This document shows positions 5,189-11,106 of a stretch of DNA of 46,725 bases, in pieces. The stretch comes from Gemmatimonadota bacterium (GTDB taxonomy: Bacteria; Gemmatimonadota; Gemmatimonadetes; Gemmatimonadales; GWC2-71-9). The stretch is taken from positions 1-46,725 of the forward strand of contig QHUU01000074.1 in the NCBI GenBank assembly GCA_003222155.1, written 5' to 3'. The notes beneath the pieces are model-generated. The model did no database searches and had not been told where the DNA came from. It was given only the letters and a program-made list of their open reading frames with translations. The stretch's first letter is position 1; each line of letters begins with the position of its first letter. Both the position numbers and the translations under genes were made by a program.

Positions 5189-6391
5189 TCAGCCCGGCGC
5201 GGAGCGGTGCAGCTTGAGGATTTTGAGCGACAGGCTGCGCGCCAGGATCCCGATCCCGCCCGGGTCGCCCTGCCGGCGCGGCACCGCGCGGTAGATCAGG
5301 ATGACCAGGATCCACGTGAGCCAGCTCGATCGCTCGCTCCACGAGAGCCCGCGCAGCATGAGCCACGGCTGCGTGTAGGCCGCGGTCCAGGCCTGCCAGT
5401 CGGCCTGGGCGAGGGCGATCGGGCGGGCCAGGACGCGGTTCGAGCGGTAGCCGTGGGCGCTCGGGCTCGAGAGGTTCCAGACGCAGGTCGCCTTGCCCCA
5501 GCCATGATTGTCGCTGGCGCCGACCGCGAGCAGATCGTGGTCTCGGGCGAGCTCGAGCACCCGGGCGCGCGCCGGCCGGGGGAAACCGAGCGCCCTGGGC
5601 GCACAGTTCACGATCTCAAAGCCGTCGACGCCGGCAGTGACGAACCGATCGAGATCGTCCCAGTGATTGCGCCAGTACTCGGGCAGCGATGCGATGCCGA
5701 TTGCGCCCTGGCCGTGGAGCGCGGCGAACAGGCCGAGCATCCCGGGCGTGTCGCGCATGTATGCGGCACGGTCGATCAGGGTCACCGGGCCGAGCGCCAC
5801 GACGTGCTGACCGTACACGCTCCACTCGACCCCGGGCAGGAGGCGGAGGGGCTGGTCGATCGCCTGGTCGAAGACCACGTTGTGATCGGTGACGAAGGAG
5901 GCGTCGAAGCCCTGCGCGGCGTGCCACCGCGCCAGATCGGCGGCGCTCCAACCGGGGCGCCCATCGTGTGACGCGGCCGTGTGGGCGTGGTAGTCGATCA
6001 CGGTGAGGGTGGAGTCCGCCGGCGCGAGCCGCGCGACGGGACGGGGCAAGAGCACCGCGGCCACGCCGAGCCCCAGCACCGCCAGCGGACCGAGCGTCGC
6101 CCGCAGCAGCCGCCGCCGCGGCGGGCCGGAGCGCGACAGGCCCCAGACGGCCAGGCCGATCACCCAGACCAGCAGGAATGCCCACGCGCGCCCCAGGCTC
6201 AGGAACGTGAGCGCGTCGAGCACGTCCGAAAGCGGGGCGAGCACGGTGTACAAGGCGGGGCGCACGAGGTCGACGTCGTACGGCACCGCGCCGCTCACGG
6301 CATCCACGAGCGGCGGGAGCGGGGCGAGCGCCGAGACGAGCAGCAGCGCCAGGAGCGTGCAGGTGATCGGGTAGCGGCGCAGGAGATTCAT
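5189..6391 (-). CDS. Membrane-anchored PHP-domain phosphoesterase-like protein
   Basis: 400 aa. N-terminal hydrophobic segments (TCTLLALLLVSALAPLPPLV, AFLLVWVIGLAVWGL, LLRATLGPLAVLGLGVAAVLL; residues about 8-135) anchor a PHP domain. The metal-binding motifs are seen as VIDYHAHTAASHDGRPG (HxH, near residue 155), SFVTDHNVV (DH), LLPGVEWS and GASDNHGWG (DNH). PHP domains act as phosphoesterases or polymerase-associated nucleases; the substrate here is unknown and the active site may face the periplasm. A final hydrophobic stretch, SSWLTWILVILIYRAVP, lies near the C-terminus. I chose ATG 6391 (MNLLRRYP); an ATG 15 nt... codons further upstream (MPKIVR, 6406) is possible but would run into the divergent gene. 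Confidence 0.82.
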   Translation of the reverse strand: MNLLRRYPITCTLLALLLVSALAPLPPLVDAVSGAVPYDVDLVRPALYTVLAPLSDVLDALTFLSLGRAWAFLLVWVIGLAVWGLSRSGPPRRRLLRATLGPLAVLGLGVAAVLLPRPVARLAPADSTLTVIDYHAHTAASHDGRPGWSAADLARWHAAQGFDASFVTDHNVVFDQAIDQPLRLLPGVEWSVYGQHVVALGPVTLIDRAAYMRDTPGMLGLFAALHGQGAIGIASLPEYWRNHWDDLDRFVTAGVDGFEIVNCAPRALGFPRPARARVLELARDHDLLAVGASDNHGWGKATCVWNLSSPSAHGYRSNRVLARPIALAQADWQAWTAAYTQPWLMLRGLSWSERSSWLTWILVILIYRAVPRRQGDPGGIGILARSLSLKILKLHRSAPG

Positions 6392-6394
6392 CCG

Positions 6395-6400
6395 TACAAT
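6395..6400 (+). promoter_or_regulatory. -10 hexamer TACAAT, leaderless
   Basis: TACAAT lies 7 nt before the ATG at 6408 of the lipoprotein gene, with no ribosome site between. The 17-bp-spaced -35 position (TAGCGG) is poor, so activity may depend on another factor. Confidence 0.5.
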
Positions 6401-6407
6401 CTTGGGC

Positions 6408-6746
6408 ATGCGGGCACTGCACGCCACAGTCGTCGGGTTGCTCGCGTCGAGCATCGTCGGCGCGGGGACTGCATGCCGTCAATCCTCACGCGCGAGCGGC
6501 GCGTCCGATGCCGGCGCGTTGGTGACGGTCTATGTGCCGGCCCGGATGGCTGACCAGGTGATGGGGCCGCTGCAGGCGGTCGCGGCACGGCACCGGTGGG
6601 CCCTCTCGGTCCGGACGGACAGCGGCGCCCTCGCCGACGCCGACCTGACGATCGCCGACAGCGCGGGCCGTCCCGTGGCGCGGGTCCGGGCGGGATCGGC
6701 GGTGGAGGCGCAGGCGAGGCAGCTGGCGAAGGGAGCGCTGCCGTGA
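6408..6746 (+). CDS. Small predicted lipoprotein
   Basis: 112 aa. It begins MRALHATVVGLLASSIVGAGTAC, a signal peptide ending in a lipobox-like GTAC, so the mature protein should be lipidated at Cys near residue 23. The mature part is about 90 residues, mixed alpha/beta, including VTVYVPARMADQVMGPLQAVAARH and ADLTIADSAGRPVARVR. This recalls the start of a periplasmic substrate-binding protein but is too short to be one. It could be a truncated or minimal version. The stop overlaps the next gene's GTG by 4 bp (GTGA), so the two are translationally coupled. Confidence 0.65.
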   Translation: MRALHATVVGLLASSIVGAGTACRQSSRASGASDAGALVTVYVPARMADQVMGPLQAVAARHRWALSVRTDSGALADADLTIADSAGRPVARVRAGSAVEAQARQLAKGALP

Positions 6747-7496: not shown

Positions 7497-8675
7497 ATGC
7501 CCGACTACACCTATGTGATTGTCGGCGGCGGCATGACCGCCGACGCGGCGGCACAGGCCATCCATGAAGCCGATCCCGTCGGATCGATCGGGGTGATCGG
7601 CGCCGAGCCGCACCCCCCGTACGACCGGCCGCCGCTCTCGAAGGCCCTGTGGAAAGGCGAGCCCGAAGACAAGATCTGGCGCAAGACGGTCTCCACGGGC
7701 GCGCAGCTGCACCTCGGTCGCCGCATCGGCGCGATCGATGTGCGGGCGCACCTGGCGACGGACGACCGGGGCACGAAGTACCGTTTCACCAAGCTGCTCC
7801 TCGCCACCGGCGGGACCCCGCGGCAGCTGCCGCTCAAGACGGACCAGATCATCTATTTCCGCACGCTCGATGACTACCGGCGACTGCGCGCGCTCGCGAG
7901 CCAGAGCGTGCGGTTCTGCGTGATCGGCGGTGGGTTCATCGGGAGCGAGGTCGCCGCGGCGCTTCGGATGCAGGGGCGCGACGTGACGATGCTCGTTCCG
8001 GAGGCGGGGCTGGGCGCGCGGGTGTTTCCCGCCGAGCTGGCCCGCTTCCTGGCGGACTATTACCGGCAGAAGGGCGTGACGATGCGGCTCGGGGAGGGCA
8101 TGGCGGGCCTCGACCGGCGCGCAGGGTCTTGTCTCGTGCACACGACCACCGGCGGCGAGCTCGTGGCCGAGGTGCTGGTGGCGGGTCTCGGCATCATGCC
8201 GACGGTGGATCTGGCGGAGCAGGCGGGCCTGCGCGTGGACAATGGCGTCGTGGTGGACGAGTTCTGCCGCACGAGCCATCCGGACGTGTATGCGGCGGGT
8301 GACGTCGCCAACTTCGCGAATCCCGCGCTGGGCACGCGGTTGCGCGTGGAGCACGAAGACAACGCCAACACGATGGGGCGCACCGCCGGCCTCAACATGG
8401 CGGGCCGGGCGACGGCCTACGATCATCTGCCGTTCTTCTATTCGGACCTGTTCGATCTGGGCTATGAAGCGGTGGGCGACCTGGACGCCCGGCTCGAGAC
8501 GGTGACGGACTGGAAGGTGCCGTTCCGAGAAGGTGTGGTCTACTACCTGAAGGGCGGCCGGGTGCGCGGCGTGCTCTTGTGGAACACGTGGGGGCAGGTG
8601 GACCACGCGCGGGCCCTCATCGCGGAGCGGGGCCCGTTCCAGGCTCAGGACTTGAAGGGTCGGCTGCCCGCGTAA
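7497..8675 (+). CDS. FAD/NAD(P)-dependent oxidoreductase (ferredoxin-reductase type)
   Basis: 392 aa from ATG 7497 (MPDYTYVIVGGGMTADAAA). Two Rossmann folds are visible: the FAD site VIVGGGMTADAA at residues 6-17 and the NAD(P) site FCVIGGGFIGSEVAAAL near residue 140. Also seen are the ATGGTPRQLP hinge and the second FAD motif DVYAAGDVANF near residue 262. The C-terminal domain (RVEHEDNANTMGRTAGLNM, then VYYLKGGRVRGVLLWN) is that of rhodocoxin/putidaredoxin reductases and AIF-like proteins, which pass electrons from NAD(P)H to a ferredoxin or quinone. No ferredoxin lies nearby. A TACGGT hexamer ends 5 nt before the ATG. The stop overlaps the start of the next gene (TAATG). Confidence 0.9.
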   Translation: MPDYTYVIVGGGMTADAAAQAIHEADPVGSIGVIGAEPHPPYDRPPLSKALWKGEPEDKIWRKTVSTGAQLHLGRRIGAIDVRAHLATDDRGTKYRFTKLLLATGGTPRQLPLKTDQIIYFRTLDDYRRLRALASQSVRFCVIGGGFIGSEVAAALRMQGRDVTMLVPEAGLGARVFPAELARFLADYYRQKGVTMRLGEGMAGLDRRAGSCLVHTTTGGELVAEVLVAGLGIMPTVDLAEQAGLRVDNGVVVDEFCRTSHPDVYAAGDVANFANPALGTRLRVEHEDNANTMGRTAGLNMAGRATAYDHLPFFYSDLFDLGYEAVGDLDARLETVTDWKVPFREGVVYYLKGGRVRGVLLWNTWGQVDHARALIAERGPFQAQDLKGRLPA

Positions 8676-9658
8676 TGGCGCTGCGCGGGGCGCCCGTCAC
8701 GAAGATCTTGGTGGCCGCGACCTCGTCGCTCGCCGCGCTGCTGGGCGTGACGCTCGCTCTCGCCACGGTGCAGGCGAATCGCGGGGCGGACGAGTCGATC
8801 CGGCGCGCGCTCGCGGACACGCGCCGCGGCGTCCAGACGCTCTTGGCGGGCCGCACCGCGACGCTCGCCGGCATGAGCGACGTGAGCGCCCAGGTGCCGC
8901 AGTTCCGCGAGCGGCTGCTCAAGAGTGACGAGCGCTCCGCCGTGCTGGACCAGGTGGCGGAGTACCGGCGGCTGCTCGGGGCCGCCTGGGTACTGGTGAC
9001 CAACGAGCACGGCATCCTGGTGGCGCGCACTGATTATCCCGAGGAGGTCGACGTCGACCTGTCGCGCGGCGCGCTGGTCGCAGGCGCGCTGTCCGGAGAG
9101 TCATCGAGCGGGGCCTGGCTCGACGACCGGTCGCACCAGCTGTTCGTAGCCGTGGGGGTGCCGCTGCGGGCATCCGCAGCGGCGACGCCGCAGGGCGCAC
9201 TCCTGGCCGCGTACGCGATCGACGACACGCTCGCGCAACAGATCAAGCAGGCGACGAACGCCGACGTGGTCCTCTTCGCGCTCGATACGCTGGACCATCC
9301 CTACGTCGTCGGCAGCACGCTGCCGCGCGAGCAGGTCGGCCCGGCGCTCGCCGCCGACACGGCGGCGCTGCGCCGCTTCGCTGCCGACTCGGGCGCCGAG
9401 GAGCTGTCGGCGGTCCTGGATCGCGAACATCTGATCGGTCTCGCCAGTCCGATCCGTTCGGCGGGCGGCGACGCGTTCGGCGGATTTGTGGTATTCCGGT
9501 CGCGCGAGCGGGAGCTGGCGGCGTTTGCCGGCCTGCGCCGCACGCTGGCGATCGCGTTCGCGCTCGGGCTTGGGCTGGCGGTTGCCTCTGTCTCTAGATC
9601 CCTCCGAACCAGGGATACCCCTGGTCCTCCCAGTAGCCGCCGGGTCGCCGATCGGTGA
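8675..9658 (+). CDS. Membrane-anchored Cache-like sensor without an output domain
   Basis: 327 aa, start ATG 8675 overlapping the previous stop (TAATG). Layout: TM1 at residues about 10-32 (ILVAATSSLAALLGVTLALATV), a large extracytoplasmic domain of about 260 residues with Cache/CHASE4 features (YRRLLGAAWVLVTNEHGILVARTDYPEE, LFVAVGVPLRA, HLIGLASPIRSAGGDAFGGFVVFRSRERE), then TM2 near residues 288-306 (TLAIAFALGLGLAVASV). After TM2 only about 20 residues follow and no HAMP, kinase, cyclase or MCP domain. The tail (RSLRTRDTPGPP onward) is encoded antisense to the end of the molybdopterin oxidoreductase gene. It may signal through a partner protein or be a remnant of a longer receptor. Confidence 0.75.
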   Translation: MALRGAPVTKILVAATSSLAALLGVTLALATVQANRGADESIRRALADTRRGVQTLLAGRTATLAGMSDVSAQVPQFRERLLKSDERSAVLDQVAEYRRLLGAAWVLVTNEHGILVARTDYPEEVDVDLSRGALVAGALSGESSSGAWLDDRSHQLFVAVGVPLRASAAATPQGALLAAYAIDDTLAQQIKQATNADVVLFALDTLDHPYVVGSTLPREQVGPALAADTAALRRFAADSGAEELSAVLDREHLIGLASPIRSAGGDAFGGFVVFRSRERELAAFAGLRRTLAIAFALGLGLAVASVSRSLRTRDTPGPPSSRRVADR

Positions 9659-10343
9659 ACGTCATCGAGACCAGGTACTTGGTGAGCTTGTAGCCCAGCT
9701 TGGTTGGCGAGTACAGCCGCAGGGGCGCACCGTGCGCCGGTGGGAGCGGATTGTCGTTCATCCCGTACGCCAGGATGGTTTGCGGATGCATGGCGCTCGC
9801 CAGATCCCACCCGTTCGAGTAGCCGGCGTCGAACGAGTCGAAACTGATGTAGCGCGCGGTGTCGAGCGGGCGGCAGCGGGCGACGATCGCGGACACCGGG
9901 ACGCCGTGCCAGCTCGCGATCGCCGACCAGCCCTCCACGCAGTGATGCTTCACCGTGTACGCCGTTCGCGGCAGCCGCATGAGGTCGTCGAGCGACAATT
10001 CGAGCGGGTGCTCGACCAGGCCCTGCACGCGCAGCCGCCAACGGTCCGGGTCGCGCAGCATGGGCATCATTCCCGAGATGAAATAGCTCGGCAGCATCGC
10101 GCTGCGCTCGGCGGCTGAGTACGTCCGCGCCAGGTGCGTGGGGGAGAACAAGACCTTCTCGCCCACCCAGTCGTTGACGCGGCTCCAGTCGAGGAGCAGC
10201 GGGCGAATGGCGCCGCCCCCGTCCCAACCGCACGCCGCCGCCAGCGCGGTGCCAGCTCCGCCCAGACCCAACTTTACGAATGCGCGCCGGTCGACACCGG
10301 GCGTCTGGGCGCCTAGGAGTCTGCGTCTCTCGGTCTCAGTCAT
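9594..10343 (-). CDS. Tat-exported molybdopterin-dependent oxidoreductase (MsrP/YedY-like)
   Basis: 249 aa. The N-terminus has a twin-arginine signal (VDRRAFVKLGLGGAG, Arg19-Arg20) running into a lipobox-like ALAAAC (Cys38), so the protein is probably a Tat-exported lipoprotein. The sulfite-oxidase-type Moco domain follows: YFISGMMPMLRDPDRWRLRV, then YTVKHHCVEGWSAIASWHGV with the molybdenum-ligating Cys135, and DNPLPPAHGAPLRLYSPTKLGYK, the usual substrate/cofactor loop. Members reduce oxidised methionines or other S- or N-oxides, or oxidise sulfite. It is encoded with a b-type cytochrome (8-bp overlap), which suggests quinol-linked reduction. It converges with and overlaps the sensor gene by 65 bp. 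Confidence 0.9.
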   Translation of the reverse strand: MTETERRRLLGAQTPGVDRRAFVKLGLGGAGTALAAACGWDGGGAIRPLLLDWSRVNDWVGEKVLFSPTHLARTYSAAERSAMLPSYFISGMMPMLRDPDRWRLRVQGLVEHPLELSLDDLMRLPRTAYTVKHHCVEGWSAIASWHGVPVSAIVARCRPLDTARYISFDSFDAGYSNGWDLASAMHPQTILAYGMNDNPLPPAHGAPLRLYSPTKLGYKLTKYLVSMTFTDRRPGGYWEDQGYPWFGGI

Positions 10344-11013
10344 GGCTCGGAAAGCGGCCTCGGTACCACCCCGTGATCATGGCCCGCAGCGAAGCGGGGT
10401 CCACGACGAACACGAGGATCACGTGCATGATCGTGAACCCCACGAAGATCCACACGATCCAGAAATGCCAGTAGCGCGCCGCCTGAAATCCACCCAACAA
10501 CGCCGTCAGCCAGCTCAGCTGGGTCGGTTTGTAGATCGCGAAGCCGGTGAGCACCGCGAGCGCGCCCAGCACGATCACACCCGTGTACGCAAGCTTCTGG
10601 AGCGGGTTGTGCTTACCCTGCGGTGGATGCTCCCGGCGGAGATGGAGGTAGTACTTCGTCATCGCGAGCGCGCCCGGAACGTCCCGCGGGCGGAACAGCA
10701 GGGCGCGCCACTCGCCGCTCCGTACGAGGTACCCGAGGTACAGGAGACCGAAAGCGACGAGCGGCCATGCCAGCGCGAAGTGCCAGTTGAGCGCGCCCGC
10801 GAGCCAGCCGCCGAGCCGGCTCCAGTGCGGGAACTGTGCGCCGTCGAACGGGCTCGCTAAGTACGGCCCGCCCCGGTTTCCGAACCGGTCGTAGGCCTCG
10901 TAGATCTGCAGGCCGCTCGCGATCAGGCCAGCGAGCACGACGACGGTCGCCCAGTGGGTGAGCCGGACGATCCAGTGGTGGCGGCGTACGGTTGCGGCAG
11001 GAGTCGCGGTCAT
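10336..11013 (-). CDS. Cytochrome b561-type membrane subunit
   Basis: 225 aa starting MTATPAATVRRHHWIVRLTHW at ATG 11013. It has four main hydrophobic segments, with histidines placed as heme ligands: RLTHWATVVVLAGLIASGL, LNWHFALAWPLVAFGLLYLGY, YTGVIVLGALAVLTGFAIY and YWHFWIVWIFVGFTIMHVILVFVV. This is the YedZ/cytochrome b561 fold that passes electrons from the quinol pool to a periplasmic oxidoreductase. The next gene, overlapped by 8 bp, is the Tat-exported molybdoenzyme, so the two should form one membrane-anchored redox system. Confidence 0.88.
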   Translation of the reverse strand: MTATPAATVRRHHWIVRLTHWATVVVLAGLIASGLQIYEAYDRFGNRGGPYLASPFDGAQFPHWSRLGGWLAGALNWHFALAWPLVAFGLLYLGYLVRSGEWRALLFRPRDVPGALAMTKYYLHLRREHPPQGKHNPLQKLAYTGVIVLGALAVLTGFAIYKPTQLSWLTALLGGFQAARYWHFWIVWIFVGFTIMHVILVFVVDPASLRAMITGWYRGRFPSHD

Positions 11014-11106
11014 GGCAGCAGGGGAAACCTGCGGCCACGGCCCGATCCCCGCCACTGTCGTCCGTGCGCTTCCAGGCCGCCCTGCCCGGCCTTAGCTTGC
11101 AGGCCG

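Follow-up and report, generated by a model that had tools for sequence, protein, structure and literature searches.

Gene organization of the locus

The window, as we call the whole analyzed stretch of 46,725 nucleotides, carries at positions 8675-9658 a gene for a membrane sensor with no recognizable output domain, situated between the genes of an FAD-dependent reductase and of a molybdoenzyme. The features of the locus are listed below.

7497..8675 (+): FAD/NAD(P)-dependent reductase (Pyr_redox_2; ferredoxin-reductase/AIF-like), Pfam PF07992, 1.8e-50
8675..9658 (+): kinase-less dCache-like membrane sensor, 327 aa, also contained in a longer frame, 8579-9658
8702..8770 (+): TM helix 1 (TM1), residues ~10-32, by hydropathy; helix 6-72 in the structure model
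8777..9529 (+): predicted periplasmic double-Cache-like ligand-binding domain, residues ~35-285, by structure model
9539..9592 (+): TM helix 2 (TM2), residues ~289-306, the last part common to full-length orthologs
9586..9597 (+): deletion joint, by DNA comparison; TM2 sequence fused just before the receptor/molybdoenzyme stop overlap of relatives
9594..9658 (+): tail of ~21 residues, antisense over the molybdoenzyme 3′ end, by sequence
9594..10343 (-), stop included: molybdopterin oxidoreductase (Oxidored_molyb), PF00174, 7.9e-39
10336..11055 (-): b-type cytochrome (Ni_hydr_CYTB / cytochrome b561), adjoining the molybdoenzyme, PF01292, 9.2e-28

The start of the FAD reductase was set at 7497, since the ortholog matches begin at its residue 1. 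The sensor ATG overlaps the TAA stop of the reductase gene as TAATG (8673-8677); at the other end, the sensor and molybdoenzyme genes overlap by 65 bp (9594-9658), a segment that spans the last ~21 sensor residues and the stop. Hydropathy gave two hydrophobic stretches in the sensor, the best 19-residue segments beginning at residues 11 and 290, and Pfam found no output domain, neither HAMP nor protein kinase, after TM2. The initial annotation had described an N-terminal TM helix, a Cache-like domain and a second TM helix followed by ~20 residues, a C-terminus antisense to the last 65 bp of the molybdoenzyme gene, and TAATG coupling to the FAD oxidoreductase; all of this was borne out, the Cache fold being seen in the structure model. 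The same ORF, with the TAATG overlap and the deletion joint, recurs in two other species (genomes G027 and G021, the genome of the window being G000), thus the sensor ORF is more than a product of chance.

The best named match of the molybdoenzyme was MsrP (NCBIfam) at 111.6 bits, below the cut-off of 207. Elsewhere in the window, at 5192-6454 on the minus strand, we saw hydrophobic N-terminal stretches and, by eye, a PHP-like HxH...TDHN pattern; this frame had no Pfam match at E ≤ 0.01.

Fold of the sensor

A structure model of the sensor was built with an alignment of 26 sequences (A1; identity to the window protein 39-87%). Its mean pLDDT was 82.5, with residues 315-327 below 50, and its layout is a long N-terminal helix, alpha/beta modules at residues ~35-285 (two Cache modules) and a C-terminal helix. 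Foldseek against solved structures produced matches to Tlp3 (6.4e-10), Mlp37 (1.1e-9), DctB (2.2e-9) and PctA (2.5e-9), the TM-scores by query length for the Cache matches being about 0.4-0.5; VIA-align gave DctB with Z 16.1 (223 residues, rmsd 4.5) and CitA with Z 15.9 (129 residues, rmsd 2.2). Prediction of the extracellular domain, a check proposed at the outset, thus placed residues ~35-285 among Cache sensor domains. The best Foldseek row, an integrative WalK-YycH model (E 4.2e-10), was set aside for its rmsd of 50.7, and four thioesterase-like structures (E 0.59-0.62, A1 against solved structures) were taken as chance matches.

The dCache assignment rests on fold, as the Pfam models of the Cache clan stayed under their cut-offs: CHASE4 reached 16.2 bits (cut-off 26.2) and sCache_3_2 15.3 bits (cut-off 28.4). 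The NCBIfam models gave no match for the sensor. The periplasmic domains of DctB, CitA, sporulation kinase D and Tlp3 have a fold like that of the sensor; however, these proteins are histidine kinases or chemoreceptors, with aligned identity to the sensor of only about 8-17%.

Full-length orthologs

The sensor was found in 40 of 102 genomes of the family, the window's included (E ≤ 0.001), and in 106 of 288 genomes of the order (E ≤ 1e-10). Among the 17 reading frames that were printed, 14 continue past TM2 into HAMP and kinase, the exceptions being those of G027, G021 and G014. In one of the 14, the protein of G026, Pfam identified HAMP (2.2e-14) and Pkinase (7.3e-52). Used as a probe, this full-length protein reached the kinase in eight more family genomes (G001, G003, G004, G005, G006, G010, G087 and G098); the HAMP-kinase half is also present in G023. 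For the rest of the order we relied on frame lengths, plus HAMP and/or kinase read by eye in G042, G090, G236, G254 and G062.

The G026 ortholog (L033) occupies the same locus and is about 69% identical across the sensor plus its two TM helices. Full-length orthologs of this kind run on into HAMP and Pkinase, both deleted in the window sensor, which has the orthologous sensor domain, the two flanking TM helices and the same neighbors as the receptor kinases. A search for homologs with and without output, as the initial annotation had advised, showed the HAMP-kinase half in the six other sensor-bearing genomes of the genus. Its suggestion that an older receptor had lost its output therefore stands, since same-locus orthologs continue into HAMP and kinase; the suggestion that this happened when the two regions were joined does not, because relatives likewise have sensor and molybdoenzyme as convergent neighbors, and the output was lost by an internal deletion.

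Conservation of the pairing with the FAD reductase proved to be partial: of 28 sensor-bearing genomes besides that of the window, 13 have both genes on a single retrieved stretch, and in 9 of the 13 about 0.7-3.3 kb lies between them. The TAATG overlap is present in all three species that share the deletion joint and absent in G028, the one full-length species whose bases were compared at this start.

Gene content between the FAD reductase and the molybdoenzyme varies much across relatives. An M1-family peptidase gene lies between receptor and molybdoenzyme in G026 (L033, 6100-7731, minus strand; by Pfam) and between the FAD gene and the molybdoenzyme in G025 (L089, 1108-2763, plus strand; by likeness to that of G026). 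A 387-aa protein with two CxxCH motifs adjoins the FAD reductase in G014 (L040, 7597-8760, plus strand) and G016 (L091, 4510-5673, plus strand); by eye it resembles a di-haem cytochrome c peroxidase, and the G014 copy had no Pfam match at E ≤ 0.01. In G028 (G028:C69:42117-42824, L068) the molybdoenzyme match stops at residue 236 of 249, with an in-frame TGA inside, so the C-terminus of this protein may be altered.

Loss of the kinase half

Base-by-base comparison showed that the TAG stop of the receptor in G024, G029, G012, G015 and G022 overlaps the molybdoenzyme gene at its end. The TM2 sequence of the window, G027 and G021 is fused within a few bases of this stop-overlap point, G021 being one codon shorter. 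Judged from this comparison, the kinase half is removed by an internal deletion from the end of TM2 to the stop-overlap point. The deletion, put at about 1.1 kb from the length of the HAMP-kinase half in relatives, ends where the molybdoenzyme's own coding starts. The three genomes form one clade, with support 99/99, in a 17-genome tree made from the FAD reductase and the molybdoenzyme; given the shared joint, one deletion in their common ancestor explains all three cases.

We observed two further losses, each in one assembly. In G014, of another genus, the sensor ends in ...LARQA-TAG; the HAMP-kinase part is gone and the stop lies at the same point. In G085, of a third genus, the frame ends about ten residues into HAMP, with other genes after it; this case is weaker, as the gene lies in two pieces on separate contigs and the part between these is missing. 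The sensor as a whole is absent from G025, G013 and G016, which retain the FAD reductase and the molybdoenzyme with no sensor between; these are the three of the 62 sensor-less family genomes in which absence was examined as loss. In the tree, G016 is sister to the kinase-less G014.

Several other candidates for kinase loss were rejected: G236, G254 and G062 reach HAMP and/or kinase before the contig ends, the frames of G286 (C309) and G226 (C81) are cut off within the sensor by the contig end, and in G019 the match stops one base before the contig end.

The kinase half was not seen elsewhere in the assemblies. No HAMP-kinase ortholog was found in 4 of the 10 genomes of the genus (G000, G021, G025 and G027), whose best kinase matches are 41-43% identical, versus 80-85% for the orthologs in G022, G023, G024, G028 and G029. 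Outside these, G014, G013, G016 and G085 had no match to the HAMP-kinase half at E ≤ 1e-65, while the same search recovered the ortholog in G012 and G015 at 77-79%. Relocation of the output thus received no support from these searches, although the draft genomes are incomplete (the window genome is 95% complete) and a kinase could in principle lie in a part that they lack.

Selection on the remaining sensor

Purifying selection acts on the left-over sensor, less strongly than on full-length receptors and least strongly in TM1. In codon models, where ω may be biased by GC-rich and partly saturated data, ω for the kinase-less trio was 0.130 (301 codons; 2ΔlnL 164 versus ω = 1), compared with 0.033, 0.047 and 0.049 for three full-length trios. 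The differences are significant (p 8.5e-9, 1.3e-5 and 2.4e-4), constraint being 2.7-3.9 times laxer in the kinase-less sensor. NG86 ratios were 0.26-0.33 in the kinase-less trio and 0.11-0.19 in full-length pairs.

For the same groups, the FAD reductase showed no significant shift of ω (2ΔlnL 0.5-2.7). The molybdoenzyme of the trio had ω of 0.090 versus 0.047-0.060 (2ΔlnL 2.4-6.0, p 0.014-0.12); as this gene is somewhat laxer too, part of the laxity of the sensor may be lineage-wide.

By region, TM1 was the laxest, with ω of 0.34 (30 codons) in the kinase-less clade versus 0.028 (25 codons) in full-length receptors, and for TM1 alone neutrality was not rejected (2ΔlnL 3.4). The periplasmic part had ω of 0.121 versus 0.034, with neutrality rejected (2ΔlnL 139.5), and TM2 had 0.063 versus 0.037 (21 codons each). 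On the branch of G014, ω was 0.047; the deletion there may be recent.

Identity between G000 and G021 is 77% for the sensor, 92% for the FAD reductase and 85% for the molybdoenzyme. Between G000 and G027 the values are 88%, 91% and 88%, with no gap between the genes; the gap appears with G021. The full-length pair G026-G024 has 82%, 81% and 83%. Third codon positions carry 57 of 91, 82 of 162 and 86 of 166 sensor differences. The sensor frame is intact in all three kinase-less species, at pairwise dS of 0.24-0.43. A stop-free frame as such is too weak a proof of selection: in a neutral simulation with the observed GC-rich composition, 11.6% of 2000 runs remained stop-free in all three lineages.

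In the antisense tail, third codon positions of the molybdoenzyme fall on second codon positions of the sensor. Differences in the tail lie at molybdoenzyme wobble positions in 5 of 8, 10 of 14 and 7 of 11 cases. The tail thus seems to vary within what the molybdoenzyme permits, and every such substitution replaces a tail residue; the numbers are small, and we read the tail as unconstrained. Arginines beside TM2, present in all three species, may help anchoring.

Origin and role of the kinase-less sensor

We propose that the window protein is the sensing half of an ancestral Cache-TM-HAMP-Ser/Thr-kinase receptor whose output was deleted and which has been kept by selection, acting in trans (probability about 0.72). 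In the ancestor of three species of the genus, a deletion of ~1.1 kb stripped HAMP and kinase, as the sequence comparison shows, and translation now extends ~21 codons antisense into the convergent molybdoenzyme gene; the tail would then be an accidental cytoplasmic end with no function of its own. The periplasmic Cache domain would still fold and bind its ligand at the membrane, while the sensor's own job in transmembrane signaling would be gone. It would be co-translated with the FAD reductase and work in trans, either as a tethered protein with a binding or accessory function in the periplasm or by providing input to another membrane protein. With the domain kept, the output gone and TM1 laxer, the protein looks more like a tethered binding protein, or a component that works via another protein, than like a receptor of the old style. 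From these sequence data, retained ligand binding combined with one of these two modes of action appears most likely.

The main rival, which we consider rather unlikely, is that the receptor was destroyed by the deletion, leaving a sensor ORF that is decaying and persists only since too little time has passed. The relaxed constraint would agree with this, as would TM1, compatible with neutrality, and the loss of the sensor from between the same neighbors in G025, G013 and G016 (the last being the sister of a kinase-less genome). However, neutrality is rejected for the whole sensor and for the periplasmic part alone, so decay in the strict form (ω = 1 throughout) is already rejected, and the frame has stayed intact in three species at the dS values given above; the deletion itself must predate their split, as the joint is shared. 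Relaxed selection, a TM1 compatible with neutrality and the three relatives lacking the sensor make a slow loss possible.

It is very improbable that the sensor was always free-standing, never had an output and signals via a dedicated partner. The TAATG coupling in all three species would suit such a design, and the two closest homologs of the window sensor (87% and 77% identical), both kinase-less, end at the same point. If all close homologs ended there, truncation would be refuted; only these two do, and they share the deletion. The other same-locus orthologs are full-length receptor kinases, which makes the free-standing form the derived one, and the DNA still shows the joint.

Dimers are the usual working form of Cache receptors, and one could imagine that the truncated sensor inhibits a full-length paralog, as a decoy or by forming mixed dimers with it. 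We regard this as highly unlikely: the window genome has a single match to the sensor (E ≤ 0.001), and the family alignment likewise picked up just one (E ≤ 1e-10); with no second copy found there, a mixed dimer with a close paralog is not to be expected. Least probable of all is an assembly artefact falsely fusing the sensor to the molybdoenzyme gene, in spite of the draft state of the genomes and of the G014 and G085 cases resting on one assembly each (with the G085 gene on two contigs), since the same joint occurs in separate assemblies of three species, with both sides diverged as expected and no long repeat seen at the joint in the compared sequences.

Returning to the selected sensing half, we note three independent cuts in the family at or just after TM2, which, as far as the assemblies show, left the periplasmic domain. 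One could speculate, tentatively, that removal of the kinase is a repeated and perhaps favored route from such receptors to free-standing binding proteins that are tethered to the membrane and have a new job, in this case with translational coupling to an FAD reductase.

No published report of the locus was found in the literature searched, outside which most subscription papers lie. The closest precedent is SMP_2, a free-standing module of the Cache clan whose nearest relative is the sensor of BarA/GacS-type histidine kinases (PMC4822843). As described there, SMP_2 resembles the window protein in being a membrane sensor without an output domain; it is related to a histidine-kinase sensor, whereas the output lost here is a Ser/Thr kinase. 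A further difference is that here one locus still permits comparison of the deletion joint with intact orthologs. SMP_2 was not among the three Pfam families listed at E ≤ 1 for the sensor, in a Pfam copy that may lack a model of that name.

A receptor without output is usually assumed to be useless; here the remnant sensor is still under selection. The locus also illustrates how a convergent neighbor with an overlapping stop limits the viable deletion and supplies a new C-terminus coded antisense. With a traceable deletion and intact orthologs at the same locus, it provides a clean before/after pair for the role of an orphan sensor, and would be a visible intermediate for the scenario proposed for SMP_2 (PMC4822843): a natural case of a receptor outliving its own output.
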